A stretch of 64,000 nt of DNA from contig CP137320.1 in assembly GCA_033182465.1 (NCBI GenBank), forward strand, positions 2,108,001 to 2,172,000. The letters are read 5' to 3'. The notes under the pieces are model-generated. The model ran no database searches. It was not told where the DNA came from and saw only the letters and a program-made list of their open reading frames with translations. Positions 13,186-30,119 of the stretch are shown one piece after another. Both the position numbers and the translations under genes were made by a program. This DNA is from Sanghuangporus weigelae (Eukaryota; Basidiomycota; Agaricomycetes; Hymenochaetales; Hymenochaetaceae). Within the stretch, counting starts at the first letter, position 1. Every line of letters begins with the position of its first letter.

Positions 13186-16100
13186 TCACGACCCAAAATC
13201 AATCATCCCTATCGTATTCCCGAAACCTGCGAGACATATTGAACTTTTGATGATGAGGGGTGAGAGTCGGGTGAAAGATAACCTCGGCACTGGTTTTCGA
13301 GCAGACGCCTCTCCTTCAACTTCTGTATTGACAGCTTTCAACCGTAACATAGACAACGAAGACGCCTGTAAAGGCCCGTCTGGTTTAGACGGGTCGATTA
13401 TCCATACTTCCCATCTTTCGAGTACAGACGGAGACAACGTCGTTTGTTGTGAGAGTTTCACGGGATACTTCACGACGTCGTCGGAGGCGGAATGTCGTTT
13501 CCGAGGTTTTCGTCGAAGACCGAGGATTCTGCCATTCAAAATATCCCAGCCACCTCGTTCGCATGTCGCCTCGCGAACGCGCACCAATCTAAAATTGCGC
13601 CACAGGCAGAGCATCGACAGGTCTGATGCGGACGACTTTCGCGTGTCATCTTGGCGCCCAAGACTTGATGAATCGTCGCCGTCAAGAGCTGCGCCATTAA
13701 GGTCTTCAAGCGCGAGAAAGGCTGGCACGTCGAATTTATCATTCCCTCGACGCGGCGTATCCTTTTCGGACACGCGTCTTGAGTGTATTCCGTGGCCAGA
13801 AACAGGAAAGGAGTTGACAGTCGGTCCGTTCTCGCCGGAGATTGAAGTATGTCTGCTTCGTGTTCGTGGAGTCCAATCAGCTCCGGAGGAAGAGACGAAA
13901 CTTCCACTTCTTGAGCGTCTGCCTATCGAATTATCCTTGTATGAACCGATCTTTGCTGCAAGTGGCTGATGGAGAGGACACGAGCACCGCCGTGCTAGGA
14001 TCCCTCGGTCAATCAGGACGATATGGCCAACGGAGTAAACAAGGCTAAAGCTGCATAATGGGACCTCGCCGCACTGTGAACATGCCTTGGACGGTGTAGG
14101 TAGCAGTCGTAGGTTGTTTACGAAGCCGTAATTAATATCTAGAGTTGAGATGCGTTCGCCTGTAGAACCATCCCAAAGGGAGATTATGCCAGAAAAGGTT
14201 GCAGCGACGATGAGAACGTGAGGCGTGTCCTCTATTCGCAGAGTACAAGCATGAACATCCACTATATAATCTTCTGCGGTACCGGCTAGGATGGCTATTC
14301 GGCCTTCTGGAATAAACGACTGACATACGTCCACGATTTCGAGCTCGCCGTCGTCTGAAAAGAAACACACTGCAGGAAAAGCTGTGCCAGAAGGCCGGAT
14401 TACTTTTGCCCTTTTAACATCTATGCAGCATGCAGGGCGACAATTTACTGGCACACCGTTAGACCATTGCACAACACGCCCATTCGCGTAGACGGCGAGG
14501 GCATCTGGTACGGCTGATTCGTGGTTCTGCGCTGCTGTATCCTCTATGATCGAACTGTTCCGCGTTGACCGCCCGTGGCTCCCATAGAACTCAATTTGGG
14601 TGACCGGCGAAGCACATTCGTCCAAATAAAGCCGTGTGGTGGGATGAATTGTATCTCCATGAATGGTCCAGGTGCCGATGGTCCCAGATCCTGTACCAAC
14701 CGCAAAACACATCGCACTGTCATCAATCGCGACGGCGCACAGCGAGCTCTGCACTGAAGAGGTGGCAGCGCTCTTTAATACAATATCTGACGTGTCAACT
14801 GGAATGAACTTGTGTAAGGCAGCGATCCAAATGAAGACCTCGCCGTCTGAGCTGACAGATACCAGAACAGATCCATCCTTGCTTGATGCAAGAAGGCCCA
14901 CATCAGAAGCAAAGGCTCGCGGAAACGTCTCGAAAGATGGCGGACTGTCCATCGGCGTAGGAAGCTCCTCTGCCTCGGCTCCAACATCATTCCGACGGTT
15001 CTCCAATCGGTCAGTACCTTTCAAGAGGTATAGGAGTAAGGCGTATAACGCGCTCAGTGTGGCGCCGATTGGGACCACCATGACCTTGAAGATCCACCAA
15101 AGTATACGTAAAGTACGCGCGGACCAGCGCAATCGGTGTACTCTGTGTTCTCCGATTATGTTTCCATGGTTGTGATCGAACACCAGGATTGTGGGTGTCT
15201 CAATTTTCAGGTGAACAAGTTTAGTTTCCTCTCCGCTCAGTATGCGCCATATCCTCTGCGCATCAGTGTGGACATCAAACTTGACCTGCGCAGCTTTAGC
15301 TTCTCTTACTGAAGCTCGAGTAGCTGGAGTGAGTTTGCTGTCCACTTGACGCTCAGATACAGGTAACGTAGAGTAGTAAAGCGTAGCCGTGATAACCAAA
15401 AGCTGAACTCCCACATCAGACTGCATGAATGGCATGGCGAGGCAATGATCTTTCTTACCAGCATCAAACTGAAATTCTTCGCCAACCGACCCTTTGTCGC
15501 CCTTTGCAGAGCGGCGGCAAGTCTGGAAAACACATTCACCTTGGCGGAAGGTTTTGCATTAGTAGAGGCGCTACCGCGAGGAGCAAGATTTGGATCTTGA
15601 CGAAGGAGATCATCGAGCTAGTGAAGGATGAGATTGTGCACGTTATGAAACGAAGCTACGTAGGGATTACCTCCAGCCTCTGTATATCAATTGATAGGAC
15701 AGCGACGAAGAAAGTGTGGATGAGGAACCAATGAGCCACGAGCACAACGATGGCGAATGCACAGAATTGGCGAATGGGACCATGAGAAAAAAAACCTATG
15801 ATGCCGAGGATGGAGTTGTACGAAACGACTTTCAGTGTATTCGAAGTTCCCGCCCGACTCAGGCCGATGCCTATGCGTTCTTTGACGGGCAAACTGATAG
15901 GCGTCTTGGTAACGTCGTCAATCTATTCAAGGAATCAAAATGACCTGATATGAGAAAAAAAGTGAAATGGTTCGATTCTGCAGGTACTTACTAAGCGGAA
16001 CATATTTTCAGCTCCGACGAAAACTATGACAATCGGAAAGATTCCCCTTGATGGAGAAGTCAGAATATAATCAGGGAAATGGGAATAATCAAGTTCACCA

Positions 16101-17253
16101 GGGAACAAGGGTCATGCGCAGACCAAAAATAGCGCAAACGCTGAGACTTGTGATCGTACTGACCAGAATCTCCACCAAGCCCGTAAAGCACAGACCAATT
16201 CTCGAGTGCACGGTGTCAAGGCGACGCATGCTTCCAGAGAAGTATGCGAAGAAAATCAAGTATGACACATATAAAGTCACGGTTATCAAGGATACTTTCT
16301 GGGCAGGCCTTTTCTCTGGGTTGAACTGAATGACTTTGGTCAGGAAGACATCAATTGTGGTGGCGAGTGACAGGTGCTTACCTCCAACGCATGTAGTAAA
16401 GGATCTTGTAGAAGTCTCGGAATTTCCCCAAGAGGCGCGATATCGTGGAGAATGTTTAGCCACGCTCTATGACCGTTAGAGCTATTGCAATCCTCGTCTC
16501 GAAAGAAGTAAGTGAGTACCAGATAAGCCGCGAAGTCGATGGTGCAACTACCAGGCTCGCTTGACTCGCGTCTAGCAAAGACCATTGATGGTTTCAGTGG
16601 AAGACCGGCGACGGAAACATTCTGCTGTTCATTGACAGTTCGAAGAACATTTGGGTCTGAACGCAAAGCACGCTCGTCGTGTGACCAGAATTCAAGAGGA
16701 CTGAGAACTACACAGCCTCGGGAGGGCACAGACAAGCAAGTCAAACTGCTCGACGATAAGCGGCCCGCGACATCCGTATCCAACTGTAGGGCAGATTGAA
16801 GGAGATCATAGTTGATGGCACCGGCGTCTGAGTCAAAGCCATTACTCGTGAGGAAGACGCGCTCCACGCGTACAGTTTTTTCAGTGCCGCATTTTGCACG
16901 GGCAACTGTATCCTCCAGAATATGTAGGCTTTCGTAACCGTTCCAAACATTATCGAGATCGTCTTGGAAGTCCCAAAGAGGCTGTGTTGTGAGCCCAAAC
17001 CATTGACCTATGATACGTGGCGACGAGCTGGGCAAAAATCGCCTGACTGAGTCCGAGTAGATTCCAATTGCCGGATAGAACAAGGAAGTGATAACGAGTC
17101 CAGAGATGAGAATGAGGCGGATCTGGTGTGTCGCGCAGTGACTAACACAAATCGGTATGAGAAGTACCCTCATGTAGCCGTGAATATGACCCACATTCCA
17201 AAACGGTGAAAGATCTTTGAGCTCCAGACTCTGAAAGTATCAATTCCTATCAT
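13186..17253 (-). CDS. SCAP: SREBP cleavage-activating protein (SCAP), sterol sensor with WD40 tail
   Basis: Polytopic ER protein that escorts the SREBP transcription factor and responds to sterols; in fungi the pathway also senses low oxygen. I start it at 17253 because MIGIDTFRVWSSKIFHRFGI joins by a 55-nt intron (GTGGGT..GTTAG) to HCATHQIRLILISGLVITSL, the first membrane helix. A large luminal loop follows (to about 16450). The sterol-sensing domain is at about 16330-15660: VSLITVTLYVSYLIFFAYF, GLRMTLVPW joined to GIFPIVIVFVGAENMFRL, and GIIGFFSHGPIRQFCAFAIV. A further exon encodes two more hydrophobic helices (LLVITATLYYSTL and MVVPIGATLSALYALLLYLL). The long last exon (15419-13186) carries WD40-like repeats (VSSDGEVFIWIA, VAATFSGIISLWDGSTGERI) with disordered Ser/Arg-rich inserts. 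Total is about 1,200 residues. It shares a 394-bp divergent spacer with the PDX1 gene. Confidence 0.85.
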
Positions 17254-23521: not shown

Positions 23522-24748
23522 ATGTTCTCCCCTCCTCTTCGACATTCTTCCCCTGGTCCTGGTCTGCACATTTTGCCCGCGGTCCTCCATCCTACCTGTC
23601 ACAACCCAGAAAACTCTTTTGACGACGCGCGTGTCTCGACTCGACCGTGCCTCAAACGCCAGGCGACTGCCCCTCTCCCTTCACACTTTACTATCCTTAC
23701 AAAGAAGACTCGTGAAACATTCTTATACAGCGCGCTTTGGTCAGATAAAGTGCATGCAGCGTTTCTTGAAGGTGAGTGTAAGTTTTTATAAGTAAGTCTA
23801 TCGTGCGTTTACCCGACGCAATACAATACATAAAGCTCTGCAAAACCATCCTCTATCTTCTACCTGGAGACTCGATGAAGCTTGTAAAGATATTCCGGAT
23901 GACGAACATGCGGACTACTGTAGAATAATCCAAGACTATATTTTGAGCAAAACCGGCTGTCCCCATTCGGTTGAACAGATATCAGAACAAATTAATATTG
24001 TCCTTTCTAGCCCTTTAGGTTAGTTTTTTATCTCTGCATGCCTTCAATATCAGTACTTATGTCAATTGTCATTGCGGTTCTAGCGACACCTCTCGTGAAA
24101 ACACCCGCTGAGGATGAGTTGGTATCCCTGGCGGAAAGCGAGCAAGCCCATGCCCATGAGACAGAATCGAATGCGAAGTCGTATTCTTCCAGAGCTTGGC
24201 AACCGAAACGAGCTACAATGCGCTCCAGCGAATCTTCCTCGATGTCCAGACGTCGAAAAGCGTGTAATAGACCTATCCTTAATCTTCATGTTGATTTGCC
24301 TCCTGTTTCCAGCCACTTTGGCTTAGGCATCTCACCTAACGCCGAGGAATCCGACTCGGGACCCGTTTCTTCAGGATTGACGCCATATTCAGTAGCTTGT
24401 CGGCCTTTTGGGCATCTTCAACACGGGTCGAGTCCGTCTACGCCATTAGAACAATGTCACAAAGGTCCTCTAGTCCTTCCAGAGATACCCAGAGTCGTCG
24501 ACGTACGTCGTCATAACGTCGGACGCTGGATTCCAACACCGACAGAAGGCGTCCTTCCCTCTCCATCTTACGCTTCATCGACCTCCTCCCCTTCGTCTAT
24601 CGCATCTACCGAAGATAGCGATTCATCAAGCGGAAGTTCAGTCAAATCTAGTGCTACTGAGCGAATGCCGCCTCGACCGAAGTTGACGAAAATGACACTA
24701 TCATGGCTTTCGATGCCGAAACACGCTTCACAGACTACTCTTCATTAA
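23522..24748 (+). CDS. TEA/ATTS-like DNA-binding protein (candidate transcription factor)
   Basis: Predicted protein of about 365 residues in three exons (introns near 23771-23834 and 24019-24083). Residues 72-140 resemble a TEA/ATTS domain: LWSDKVHAAFLEALQNHP matches the helix 1 pattern, and YILSKTGCPHSVEQISEQIN matches the family's YIxxxTGxxRxxKQVSSHIQ helix 3, though the usual basic residues are weak (PHSVEQIS for TRKQVSS). The C-terminal 220 residues are Ser/Pro-rich and disordered. Other frames in the first exon lack these features. TEA proteins regulate development in fungi (AbaA, Tec1). The weak basic residues leave open that this is a diverged member with altered or no DNA binding. 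Confidence 0.5.
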
Positions 24749-25245: not shown

Positions 25246-28200
25246 ATGTCATCAGCCCAGCACATCCAAACAGTTCTTCAGGCGTTAAGGAAAGTAGCTG
25301 TGAAGGGGAAAAAGAAGAAATCAGTGCTGGACAACATCGACAATGTGGCATCCTCTATCGTTCTTCTCGTAAGTAGTCGACACTCATCCCTATCCTACCA
25401 TTCTCACTAGCATGGGCTACTCAGAACTCCTCGTCGCCCTCCGTTCTTGTATTCGACAAGCTAGCTTCCGTCTTTCGCTTGTCTCTCGTGTCCTTGTACT
25501 CTGCATACACAGTTCACACTCTCAATGCTGCCTCTTCTATTCTTACTTATGTGCTGAATAATATCCGGTCCTGCTTCACGGACGGAGAGTATCAAGATAC
25601 TGAACGCCAGTCGGGCTGGGAACGGGTAGCGAACTCCCTGCTATCTGGTGTAATAGTACGTGGGAGTTTTTCGTTGTGCAATGTCCGTGCAATTTTCAAC
25701 TTCATATGAATGCAGGATTTTCTCGAGGGTAGCAATAACGGTGGCGTACAAGTTACTGTTCTGACTCGACTGCCGGACTCACTTTTATTTTGGACGGCAG
25801 ATAAAACCAAGACAAATATTGCCAAGGCGCTCTATGATCCACTCTGCAGTTTCTTCTTCTCAAAAGATGAATCAAGTAAATTCAACGTCGGTACAACTCT
25901 GCGCTGCACTGTGGGTGGTTCCCATTCAGTTGTGTGCTTTTCTGACCTACGTTGGTCTCTTTCTTCGCAAATTACGGCGCATATATCCAACTCATAAGAC
26001 GTATATGCTATTATCTGACTCTGCAACGCTTCACCATGATAACCAGAACAAACTTCGTGACCAAAAATTGCTCGGAGCGTGAGTGTCCCTCATTCGTACG
26101 TTCACAGAAGCTTATGTGTCTCCATGCAAAAACAGTCGCTCGCTCGGATTGACTATCTCCAAAACTAGAGGTGTGGGAATCTCTAAGTGCAAGCGTCCTT
26201 TCTCACACATTTATTATAGACTTTGCTGTTCTTGAGACACTTCTAAACTTATTCGCTATTCTGCTCCCTTCGTCGTCTGCTCCACCCAAACGCAGCTCCT
26301 ACATTCAGGACGTTTTCCTCGACCGCGGAAAAGATGTTCTCGATCTGCTTGACGGACAATCTGCCAGAGAGTGGGATGAAACGGCGACAAAGGTCCTTGA
26401 TATCTTGGCATCTTCGGACATTAGCTTGTACGTGATTGACGGGTACTTTTATATGTGATGCTAATTGGCCGTTAGTCCGCAGCCCTTCGATGTAGATGAA
26501 GTTGTCGTGGGCGAGACCAAGTACCCTCAGCCAGAAGTCTCCGACAGGTTTTATGTCGATAGGATGTCTTTCTTTGTCAATGTCCGGCGGGAGGTACATG
26601 TTACCTCCAACTGTATACGGCACTTGCTGACATTTTGCAGGATGGGTTGTACGAAGACTTGCAGATCAAATACACTAACATTGATGACATCAAATTCACA
26701 TCTGCTGGAGGTCTGTGTATTCAATCCCTCCCAGGTCGTTCTAATCAGCTCGATTCATTGTACATGCTAGATAAGTCAACTCTCATTACTGTAAAGCTGA
26801 AAATACCTCCAAAACTTGGCGACCAAGATATCGCGGCGCGAAATGGGACGTTTGACCTTCTCGTTGAAATCCTAAATAGCGACATGTCAAGGTTCAAGGA
26901 GGCACTTAAACACAGAAATCTCGTATGAATACTCAGGCATCGTGACTTTCCGGACGCTGACTTGCTTTGCACAGAATGGAATACTTGCTGTAACAAACAA
27001 GCCGCGCATATCGGTATCTGCGGACTTAGAGTTGGACGCAGATGGCCCGCAATGGCACATCTATGATAAATCGTCACTAGAAAAGGTTAGTCATTCCACA
27101 GGACAGGGGATACTGCACTTATCTACCACTTCTTTTTGAAAGGTCAAAGACGTAGAGACGTGTAAGTGATCAGGCCAAATAGCTTCCTTTTCTGACACTA
27201 TTGCATGAAGTTTACGGATCAGATCCTCTTCAAACTCCAAGCGGTAAGCAGCATACCATCGAATCCGGCGACATGTTCGATAACCTGCCTTCTAAAGGTA
27301 AGAACAGCCGCACAAAGACGTTGATGGTGTTCTAATATTATTGGATAGCCACCAAGTCCAGCGTCGCTTCAAAAATCGAGACTAAACCTTCTGAAGATTC
27401 GAGGCAACAGGCTTCCACACCTAAGCTTAAAGCATCTGTATTTGGAGAATCCGATGAAGAATTATCTGAGATCAGTGATTCCGCACAAGTATCCAGGAAG
27501 GCAAAGCCAGGACAACCGAGGAAAAATAAGCCTAACACCGCTTTAGAAGTAAGGATATACGTTAAGTTCTAGTTGTGCGATTCCTTACTTATGATAATTC
27601 GCCAAGGTCATCGTCCTTTCAGATAACGAATCTGAAGCGGAAATCAAGCGGACCTCTCGCGGCGGCAAGGGTGACAAGAAACTTCCCCAGACACGCGCTG
27701 GTACGCACGACAATGCGGCTGCAAACACGAACACCATTTACACACAGCCACTTACAGAGGATACACCCTTAGAGGGGTCTCTTTCGAAAGCATTACCTAC
27801 TAAAAACAAACCAGCGCAAGAGACGAAAGAAAGGGATGCAGATGCGAAGGTTACTGCTAATAACCATGCTTCAATTGGGCGTGCTCGACATGTCGCTGCT
27901 AGTGAAGCATCTGAAAAGCTCGCTGACGCATTCCATAGTAATGTAGATATCGGCGTCCCTAAAGAATATGCAGAACCTTGCCCGATCACCAATGTCCACA
28001 AGTCGAGGGACACGAAATCAAGGCTATCGGAACCGGGAAGCCCTGGGGAGCGGTCGGCTTCACCGTTCACCACCGTCGCTCCTCGTTCCTCCTCGCCAAC
28101 CTCAAGGGTCTCCAAGATGAGGGCGAAACATTCTACAGCCAAAAACAAGTCTGTCAAGTCCGGGCAGAAACGAACATCCGACAAAGCTCTGGCTGAAGAC

Positions 28201-30119
28201 GAAGAGGTATCCTCGCGAAAGAAGCCTCGGGTCGATGTAAAGGCTGTTGACGACGAAAAGCAGCTAGAGAATACCCAATCTGTGCGGAAAAGCATGAACC
28301 GAGGACAAAAGGCGATTGCTCATGGTTCTCAGAGGGTTACGAGACGAAGTTCTGCGGAGGACCTAAAAAAGACTGTTTTGCGAGGAAAACAATCGCCTGT
28401 TCACCGGGTTCGAGCGATATCTCCGAGCAAGCCTCGGCCCAAGGAGAACGCCGATACGTCTAAGGGTGATTCTCGAGTGAGTATCCTGTTTTTACCACAC
28501 CGACCTAGAAAGACTTACTCACTTCTTCTGAGAAGGTTACGACTTGTGTTGCCAACGAGGATAAAGGAACCACGCAGATCCAGCCACGCCTGCCCATTCA
28601 GACACTAGCTCAACCTTCCAACAGGACAATAAAGAAGGTGAACTCATTTAACTAATCACCGAATCCTGCGCCTGATACATCCACTTTGAATCCACTGATC
28701 ATACGTTATCTATGAATTTCCCTATCGACAAGAAGCTCAACGCTAAACAGCCTATTGAACATACGTCGAAGCGAAACAACGGAATCTCCGCATTGCCTTC
28801 TCTGGAAGATATACTCTTGAAGGGCGTTCCTGTTAAAGAAAGTATCATCGCTCAGAAAGTTAATGAGGTAGACGATGAAGACAGCAATGACCCAGAGAAT
28901 AACATCGACTTCGATCGTGTCGGACATTTGCCTGCCGTACATATTGCAGATTTGGACGAATTCCTCGACGTTGATCAAGACGAACAAAGTCACGTCAATA
29001 ACCTTGAAGCAAGCTATCTGGCGGAACCGCACACTCCTTTGTCAAGGAAGCCTGTAGATGGAACGCTTGTCCATAGAGCCCGGCCAGAGAAACCGCCCAA
29101 GAATGCGCTGGACCTAGATACCGAACTTATCGATCTTACTGACGAGGACATCAGAGAAGTACTGAAGAGTCTTCGCGCGAGAAGATCGAGGAAACAACGC
29201 GAGCTCGGAAATACTGCACGTCCGCAAGCGCCGACAAAGGAGGCTTCCCTTGTAGTCGGAGAACAAGAACCCTCATCGGATGGCATCGAGGCACCCACGC
29301 TACGAGAAATACCGTCACGCCAGAAAGTCAAATTTGACGAGAAGCTTCGCTACAAATCAGCCTCTCTAGAAAGCTTACCTGTACAGGAGACTGGAAGAAA
29401 TCTTTTTGTGGGCACTAGTACGTTAGTCCACGATTTCAACCCAGGCAAAAAAAAACCGATAGATCTGATTTGTCAGAAGAGCGAAAACATCGTCATCCAG
29501 AGTCTGAATCTGGATCTCGAGGGCTGGTTGGTTCGACTCGTGGAGGCCAGAAAGGACAGGAAGAGAAGCGCAAGAAGGATCCGGGAATGCAGGAGATCAT
29601 CAAAGTAGAGGGTTTTTCTTTCTTCGTTACTCCTCTGCTCACCTTTGTCTGCGTCAGGTTCTCGATGCAATACAAAATGTTCAGTTCCAGTGGGAAACCG
29701 TCCTCTTTTATCAACTATTAATCATCTTTTTGATAGGTTATCATCTCCAACATTGAAAATAAATCACGCGTTGTGCGAAGTGATATCCGCGTAGCAAGAG
29801 ACCGTCTTATCCATGAAGCGGTTGCGGACTTGCACGAGATGAGGGAGGAAAGGTGAGGGCGTCATACCTTCTATAATGCATCTTCTGAAGGCTTTACAGC
29901 GTCAGCCATTACAACAACCTTCTTGCTCTCGAGAATGAGTACGCCAACATGAATCGCAAGCTTAGCACAGGATTTGAAGGTCTGGAAAACGACAACACTG
30001 AAATCTGCAAATTCGTCCGTCAAATTCTCAGCGCCCATGATCGTGGTTCTTTACCGAAGAGAATGTCTCGGTCTCTCTTTACTTCTGCCTTGCCTGGGTC
30101 CTTCCAGAAATTCATCTGA
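25246..30119 (+). CDS. Meiotic chromosome axis core candidate (Red1/SYCP2-like architecture)
   Basis: Long multi-exon gene (over 1,100 residues) that I cannot name by direct motif match. Its layout fits the axis core proteins Red1/Rec10/SYCP2: an N-terminal helical region (MSSAQHIQTVLQALRKVAVK, then ASVFRLSLVSLYSAYTVHTL, FAVLETLLNLFAILLPSS); a beta-rich segment (RFYVDRMSFFVNV, LYEDLQIKYTNIDDIKF, STLITVKLKIPPKL) like the Spt16M-type domain; a long basic disordered middle; and a C-terminal coiled coil (VISNIENKSRVVRSDIRVAR, LLALENEYANMNRKLSTGFE) ending SFQKFI at 30117. Two SUMO-interaction motifs are visible, VIVLSDNESE at 27607 and ELIDLTDED at about 29122. Near the 3' end an intron from about 29420 switches the frame to SDLSEERKHRHPESESGSRG. 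In axis proteins the coiled coil forms filaments and the middle binds HORMA proteins. The function is inferred only; another chromatin protein is possible. Confidence 0.5.

Follow-up and report, generated by a model that had tools for sequence, protein, structure and literature searches.

A candidate SYCP2/Red1/Rec10-type core protein of the meiotic chromosome axis in the genome of the mushroom Sanghuangporus weigelae

The forward strand of a 64,000-nucleotide stretch of the genome of the basidiomycete Sanghuangporus weigelae (hereafter the window) carries a gene whose predicted product is probably an SYCP2/Red1/Rec10-type core protein of meiotic chromosome axes, a family assignment that is made from sequence comparison and falls short of proof. 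Our confidence is held at this level because the match of its strand-rich segment to the SYCP2_SLD profile depends on the removal of a single intron (26711-26770), which the automatic splice model codes through at two of the three penalties applied. The family itself is already known, and what is described here is not a new kind of protein: it would add one more member, from a group of organisms in which we have seen none named. A named candidate would open the basidiomycete axis to direct testing, and would help to bridge the distance between animal SYCP2 and yeast Red1.

As described in West 2019, axis cores have an ordered domain at the N-terminus, recruit Hop1/HORMADs through a closure motif, and carry a disordered linker as well as a coiled coil, the last of which assembles into tetramers and filaments. 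The order of parts in the S. weigelae protein is like that of Red1 and SYCP2 in the same account, and runs as follows:

25246..26427, + strand: hydrophobic N-terminal part, residues 1-305, candidate ARLD (ordered by charge-hydropathy)
26543..27085, + strand: candidate strand-rich PH/Spt16M-like domain, residues 329-456 (spliced; intron 26711-26770 must be removed)
27228..29416, + strand: long disordered region, residues 465-1105, with disorder continuing to 1142 (charge-hydropathy, low order-promoting content)
29584..30050, + strand: candidate C-terminal coiled coil, residues 1143-1245, without proline (heptads; splicing set by hand)

Residues 1-120, 121-305, 329-456 and 1143-1245 each fall on the ordered side of the charge-hydropathy boundary, and residues 465-1142 on the disordered side. 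The first-pass annotation had described a helical N-terminus followed by a beta-rich domain; order is borne out for both, while their helical and beta character is weakly indicated. The exon stretch 26222-26425, modelled alone and without an alignment, gives three helices at a mean pLDDT of 64, a prediction that fits a helical repeat domain without proving one, and an uninterrupted piece of the strand-rich segment, with its intron retained, gave an unreliable model (pLDDT 43). Likewise, the long basic disordered middle of that annotation is indeed long and disordered, but its basic character is mild, with 111 K+R against 100 D+E across residues 441-1100 and a more basic part at about 700-900. 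The C-terminal coiled coil that it proposed has a candidate here: the proline-free residues 1143-1245 hold, at 1199-1233, the strongest heptad pattern among proline-free 35-residue segments of the protein, equalled in one of 2000 shuffles. Weaker C-terminal segments lie at 1178-1212 (equalled in 111 of 2000 shuffles) and 1144-1178 (365 of 2000), and since patterns also appear outside the C-terminus, in segments starting at residue 4 (37 of 2000) and residue 387 (63 of 2000), the heptad test is not very specific.

The linker contains two further features of possible regulatory interest. A scan with the SUMO-interaction (SIM) pattern returned six matches at four places in the protein, two of which sit in the ordered N-terminus and were set aside; the two in the linker suggest that the protein may be regulated by SUMO:

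27546..27636, + strand, across intron 27549-27606: EVIVLSDNESE, residues 554-564, SUMO-interaction-like (pattern scan)
29123..29152, + strand: ELIDLTDEDI, residues 1009-1018, SUMO-interaction-like (pattern scan)

Similarity to a named family comes from the strand-rich segment. In a scan of 24736 Pfam models, SYCP2_SLD was the top match for three of the six constructs that contain this segment, all three under the family cut-off of 26.5 bits, which is a detection threshold and not a biological feature. A 92-aa core (residues 329-420) aligns with profile positions 37-106 of 112 at E = 0.038, and its 14.8 bits are the best score of any construct, none of which reaches the cut-off. A 139-aa construct (E = 0.094) and a 241-aa construct that extends into the helical part (E = 0.18) also place SYCP2_SLD first, the latter with a PH-like model at the same printed E and 0.5 bits less. 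All the runners-up are other PH-like models, two each for the 92-aa construct (E = 0.078 and 0.12) and the 139-aa construct and one for the 241-aa construct, and with E values so nearly equal, part of the signal may belong to the PH fold in general. No Pfam match was returned for the 466-aa and 1267-aa proteins or for a version that retains intron 26711-26770. Neither SYCP2_ARLD nor Red1 (PF07964) was matched by the protein or its pieces; for three pieces of the N-terminus, as for the C-terminal 129 aa, there was no Pfam match of any kind, so these two profiles are unsupported here. The earlier reading of the gene as a candidate of the Red1/Rec10/SYCP2 kind is partly supported, by the order of its parts and the identity of its top match, but that match lies below the cut-off and the ARLD and Red1 profiles lend it nothing.

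How much weight such a match can bear is best judged against control sequences. None of seven reversed or shuffled copies matched SYCP2_SLD; three of the seven gave chance matches to other families at E values of 0.049-0.23, so the strength of the SLD match is not significant by itself. Seven PH/Spt16M-like pieces from the same genome, taken from six of its 20 places with PH or Rtt106/Spt16M likeness, also failed to match SYCP2_SLD, in a control where some pieces are single exons and where HMMER filters discard most weak matches. The identity of the match is more telling than its strength, given a family that was named beforehand, that came first among 24736 models and that neither the control copies nor the genomic pieces returned. 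For comparison, Tromer 2021 calls SYCP2-type proteins by ARM-PH similarity at E < 0.01, using iterated clade-specific profiles, together with a C-terminal coiled coil, and the similarity in question covers the last part of the ARM repeats together with the PH domain; against that threshold, the Pfam SYCP2_SLD profile alone gives E = 0.038 for 92 aa and 0.18 for 241 aa here. Sequence searches of the PDB returned unrelated chains only (E 0.28-1.2). Searches of the genome with the SYCP2_SLD, SYCP2_ARLD, Red1 and Rec114 profiles gave no matches and are uninformative, since their controls gave none either. Prokaryote genome contigs gave 26 matches to the pattern but not a single relative, which is what one would expect of a gene from a fungus.

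All of this presupposes a gene model. The first-pass annotation had placed start and stop at 25246 and 30119, and an open spliced product does lie between an ATG and a TGA at these positions: in our splice model, 20 exons on the + strand encode a single product of 1267 aa with no internal stops:

exons 1-5, + strand: 25246-25368, 25425-25655, 25716-25886, 25930-26078, 26136-26170 (splice model)
exons 6-10, + strand: 26220-26427, 26476-26593, 26641-26710, 26771-26922, 26975-27085 (splice model)
exons 11-15, + strand: 27143-27161, 27223-27297, 27349-27548, 27607-28476, 28536-28637 (splice model)
exons 16-20, + strand: 28733-29417, 29477-29604, 29658-29678, 29737-29852, 29900-30119 (splice model)

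Eighteen of the 19 introns are 43-61 nt long and the remaining one is 95 nt; so many short introns agree with a fungal, probably basidiomycete, gene. Fifteen were taken from the automatic splice model at the lowest of its three penalties, and four (25887-25929, 29605-29657, 29679-29736 and 29853-29899) were set by hand. The introns inside the strand-rich segment are all automatic at the lowest penalty, none of them hand-chosen, and include the in-frame intron 26711-26770 that is coding at the two higher penalties. Introns 25746-25800 and 27701-27772, plus two GC-donor introns near the C-terminus, were dropped from the lowest-penalty model, and an unconstrained splice search at low intron penalty, which produced 41 introns, was discarded. 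The weakest junctions are those of intron 25887-25929 and of the 21-nt exon 29658-29678. The former intron, 43 nt long with the donor GTCGGT, is needed for a change of frame, and codon use does not separate it from the alternatives; the frame change near 25887 may reflect other splicing or a base error. Within the 33.9-Mb genome, all nine matches of residues 1-490 at E <= 1 fall on the gene's own locus, and there is no second copy.

Could the protein be a product of its own reconstruction, a set of adjoining open frames wrongly joined, with a domain order that is partly the modeller's? The four hand-set introns and the two weak junctions leave room for such an artefact, as does a coiled coil that is seen only with the hand-set C-terminal junctions; as these junctions were partly chosen for coherent domains, the coiled coil gives the gene model no independent support. 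We nevertheless consider an artefact very improbable when 15 of the 19 introns are automatic, when G stands at +5 in 15 of the 19 donors, and when two exons of the linker, 27607-28476 and 28733-29417, each form a long open frame.

Two other identities deserve consideration if the gene model is right. In Rec114, too, a PH fold goes together with a long disordered linker and a helical C-terminus, so that a Rec114-like protein of double-strand break formation would share much of the layout seen here. The PH fold of Rec114, however, stands at the N-terminus without a domain of some 300 residues ahead of it, whereas about 300 residues of another domain precede the PH-like segment of the S. weigelae protein, which furthermore has no Meiotic_rec114 match in Pfam; of all the readings weighed, this one strikes us as the most far-fetched. 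Basic disordered linkers and SUMO-interaction-like motifs are common among nuclear scaffolds, and the presence of both here would also suit some other chromatin protein with helical, PH-like and coiled-coil parts, such as a histone chaperone-like protein or a DNA repair scaffold. The PH-like families that come next in Pfam for the 92-aa construct lean the same way, but SYCP2_SLD ranks first in all three constructs that have any match, the seven genomic PH or Spt16M-like pieces do not match it, and, in Tromer 2021, it is by the order ARM-PH-coiled coil that proteins of the SYCP2 type are told apart from others with ARM or PH domains. On balance we regard a different chromatin protein as unlikely, though it merits being taken seriously.

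Read as an axis core, the protein would dock on cohesin-bound chromatin and on its partners through the ARM-like and PH-like unit at its N-terminus, the Hop1 of the same genome would be recruited by a short motif within the linker, and the coiled coil at the C-terminus, about 100 residues long, would self-assemble into tetramers and filaments, giving the axial element. What we infer here are the two folds, ARM and PH, along with where the protein localises, its binding to Hop1, its assembly into filaments and its expression in meiosis. The partners that an axis core needs are present, inasmuch as the genome contains Hop1-, kleisin- and Spo11-like genes. In Hop1, a HORMA domain is followed by a PHD-like stretch of cysteines and then by a basic tail. 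HORMA matches in three pieces, two of them above cut-off, lie at C3:846341-847522, within the locus C3:842500-849500 of the contig that also carries the window, and the protein continues, by eye, into a PHD-like cysteine stretch and then a basic C-terminal tail; it is a probable Hop1, and its basic tail could be its closure motif. A Rad21/Rec8 kleisin was found at one place in the genome above cut-off, with a weaker second place below it, and a Spo11-type place is present.

In SYCP2/Red1 axis cores the closure motif for the HORMA domain comes behind the ordered N-terminus and resembles the HORMAD tail, and a counterpart to the Hop1 tail was sought within the axis candidate. Residues 505-525, whose likeness to the tail was spotted by eye before any shuffle test, and residues 750-775 both resemble it by eye, and neither likeness exceeds that of shuffles. 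Against the whole protein, the tail aligns at 750-775 with a score equalled in 301-456 of 1000 shuffles; against residues 457-570, just behind the PH-like domain, between 530 and 1934 of 2000 shuffles equal the score, depending on gap costs and on the side shuffled.

Set beside its presumed relatives, the protein resembles now one and now another. It is like animal SYCP2 in its ordered N-terminus, in having SLD as its best Pfam match, in its long disordered linker and in its C-terminal coiled coil, and its ordered N-terminus of 456 aa is near the 390 aa of the mouse SYCP2 ARLD (14 helices) and SLD region described in Feng 2017. Unlike SYCP2, it lacks a match to the ARLD profile, and its coiled coil measures about 100 aa against about 175 in SYCP2 (1325-1500 in West 2019). 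The coiled coil is about the same length as the Red1 constructs 705-798 and 731-827 of the same study, and because it is nearer to these than to SYCP2 in length, a Red1-like homo-oligomer is to be expected. Unlike Red1/Rec10, the protein is without a match to the Pfam Red1 model, and its likenesses to the Hop1 tail do not rise above shuffles. Tromer 2021 assigns ASY3 of plants and KKT17/18 of kinetoplastids to the same divergent family; in seed plants ASY3 no longer has its ARM-PH part, and KKT17/18 serve kinetochores. A tentative possibility, on the doubtful side, is that mushrooms have a mixed type of axis core encoded by one gene, in which an SYCP2-like ARM-PH N-terminus is joined to a short coiled coil of Red1 length, two linker motifs read SUMO, and the protein forms homo-oligomers without SYCP3. 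Were this the case, mushrooms would have kept the opisthokont axis in its ancestral form, made of a single protein. A genome search for Cor1/SYCP3 gave no matches, and was a weak one in that it detected only one of 14 controls, below cut-off.

Tromer 2021 reports the family from a wide variety of fungi and finds no member in Ustilaginomycotina, which it describes as lacking the complex or the pathways of meiotic recombination. The available portion of the Basidiomycota table in PMC4132317 gives similarities to Hop1/ASY, HIM-3 and FKBP6 with no SYCP2 or Red1, and that of PMC3744442, on Cryptococcus, names Red1 only in a reference title. In the accessible parts of the literature searched on basidiomycete axis proteins there was no named Red1/SYCP2, and the supplementary tables of Tromer 2021 may contain one.

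Elsewhere in the window, Rfam and tRNA scans of its whole length returned no matches. A serine-rich open frame of 245 aa lies directly upstream of the gene on the + strand (24011-24748), and a 463-aa open frame on the same strand at 50339-51730 matches no Pfam model at E 0.001. On the - strand, a PH domain match above cut-off lies at 2273-2569 (E = 6e-7), and a nearby frame begins, by eye, a protein kinase. A Pfam SCAP_N match at 16340-17239 on the - strand (E = 8.9e-8) sits beside a 790-aa frame at 13186-15558 on the same strand, which is WD-repeat-like by eye but without Pfam matches at E 0.001; together, 13186-17239 on the - strand is probably SCAP.
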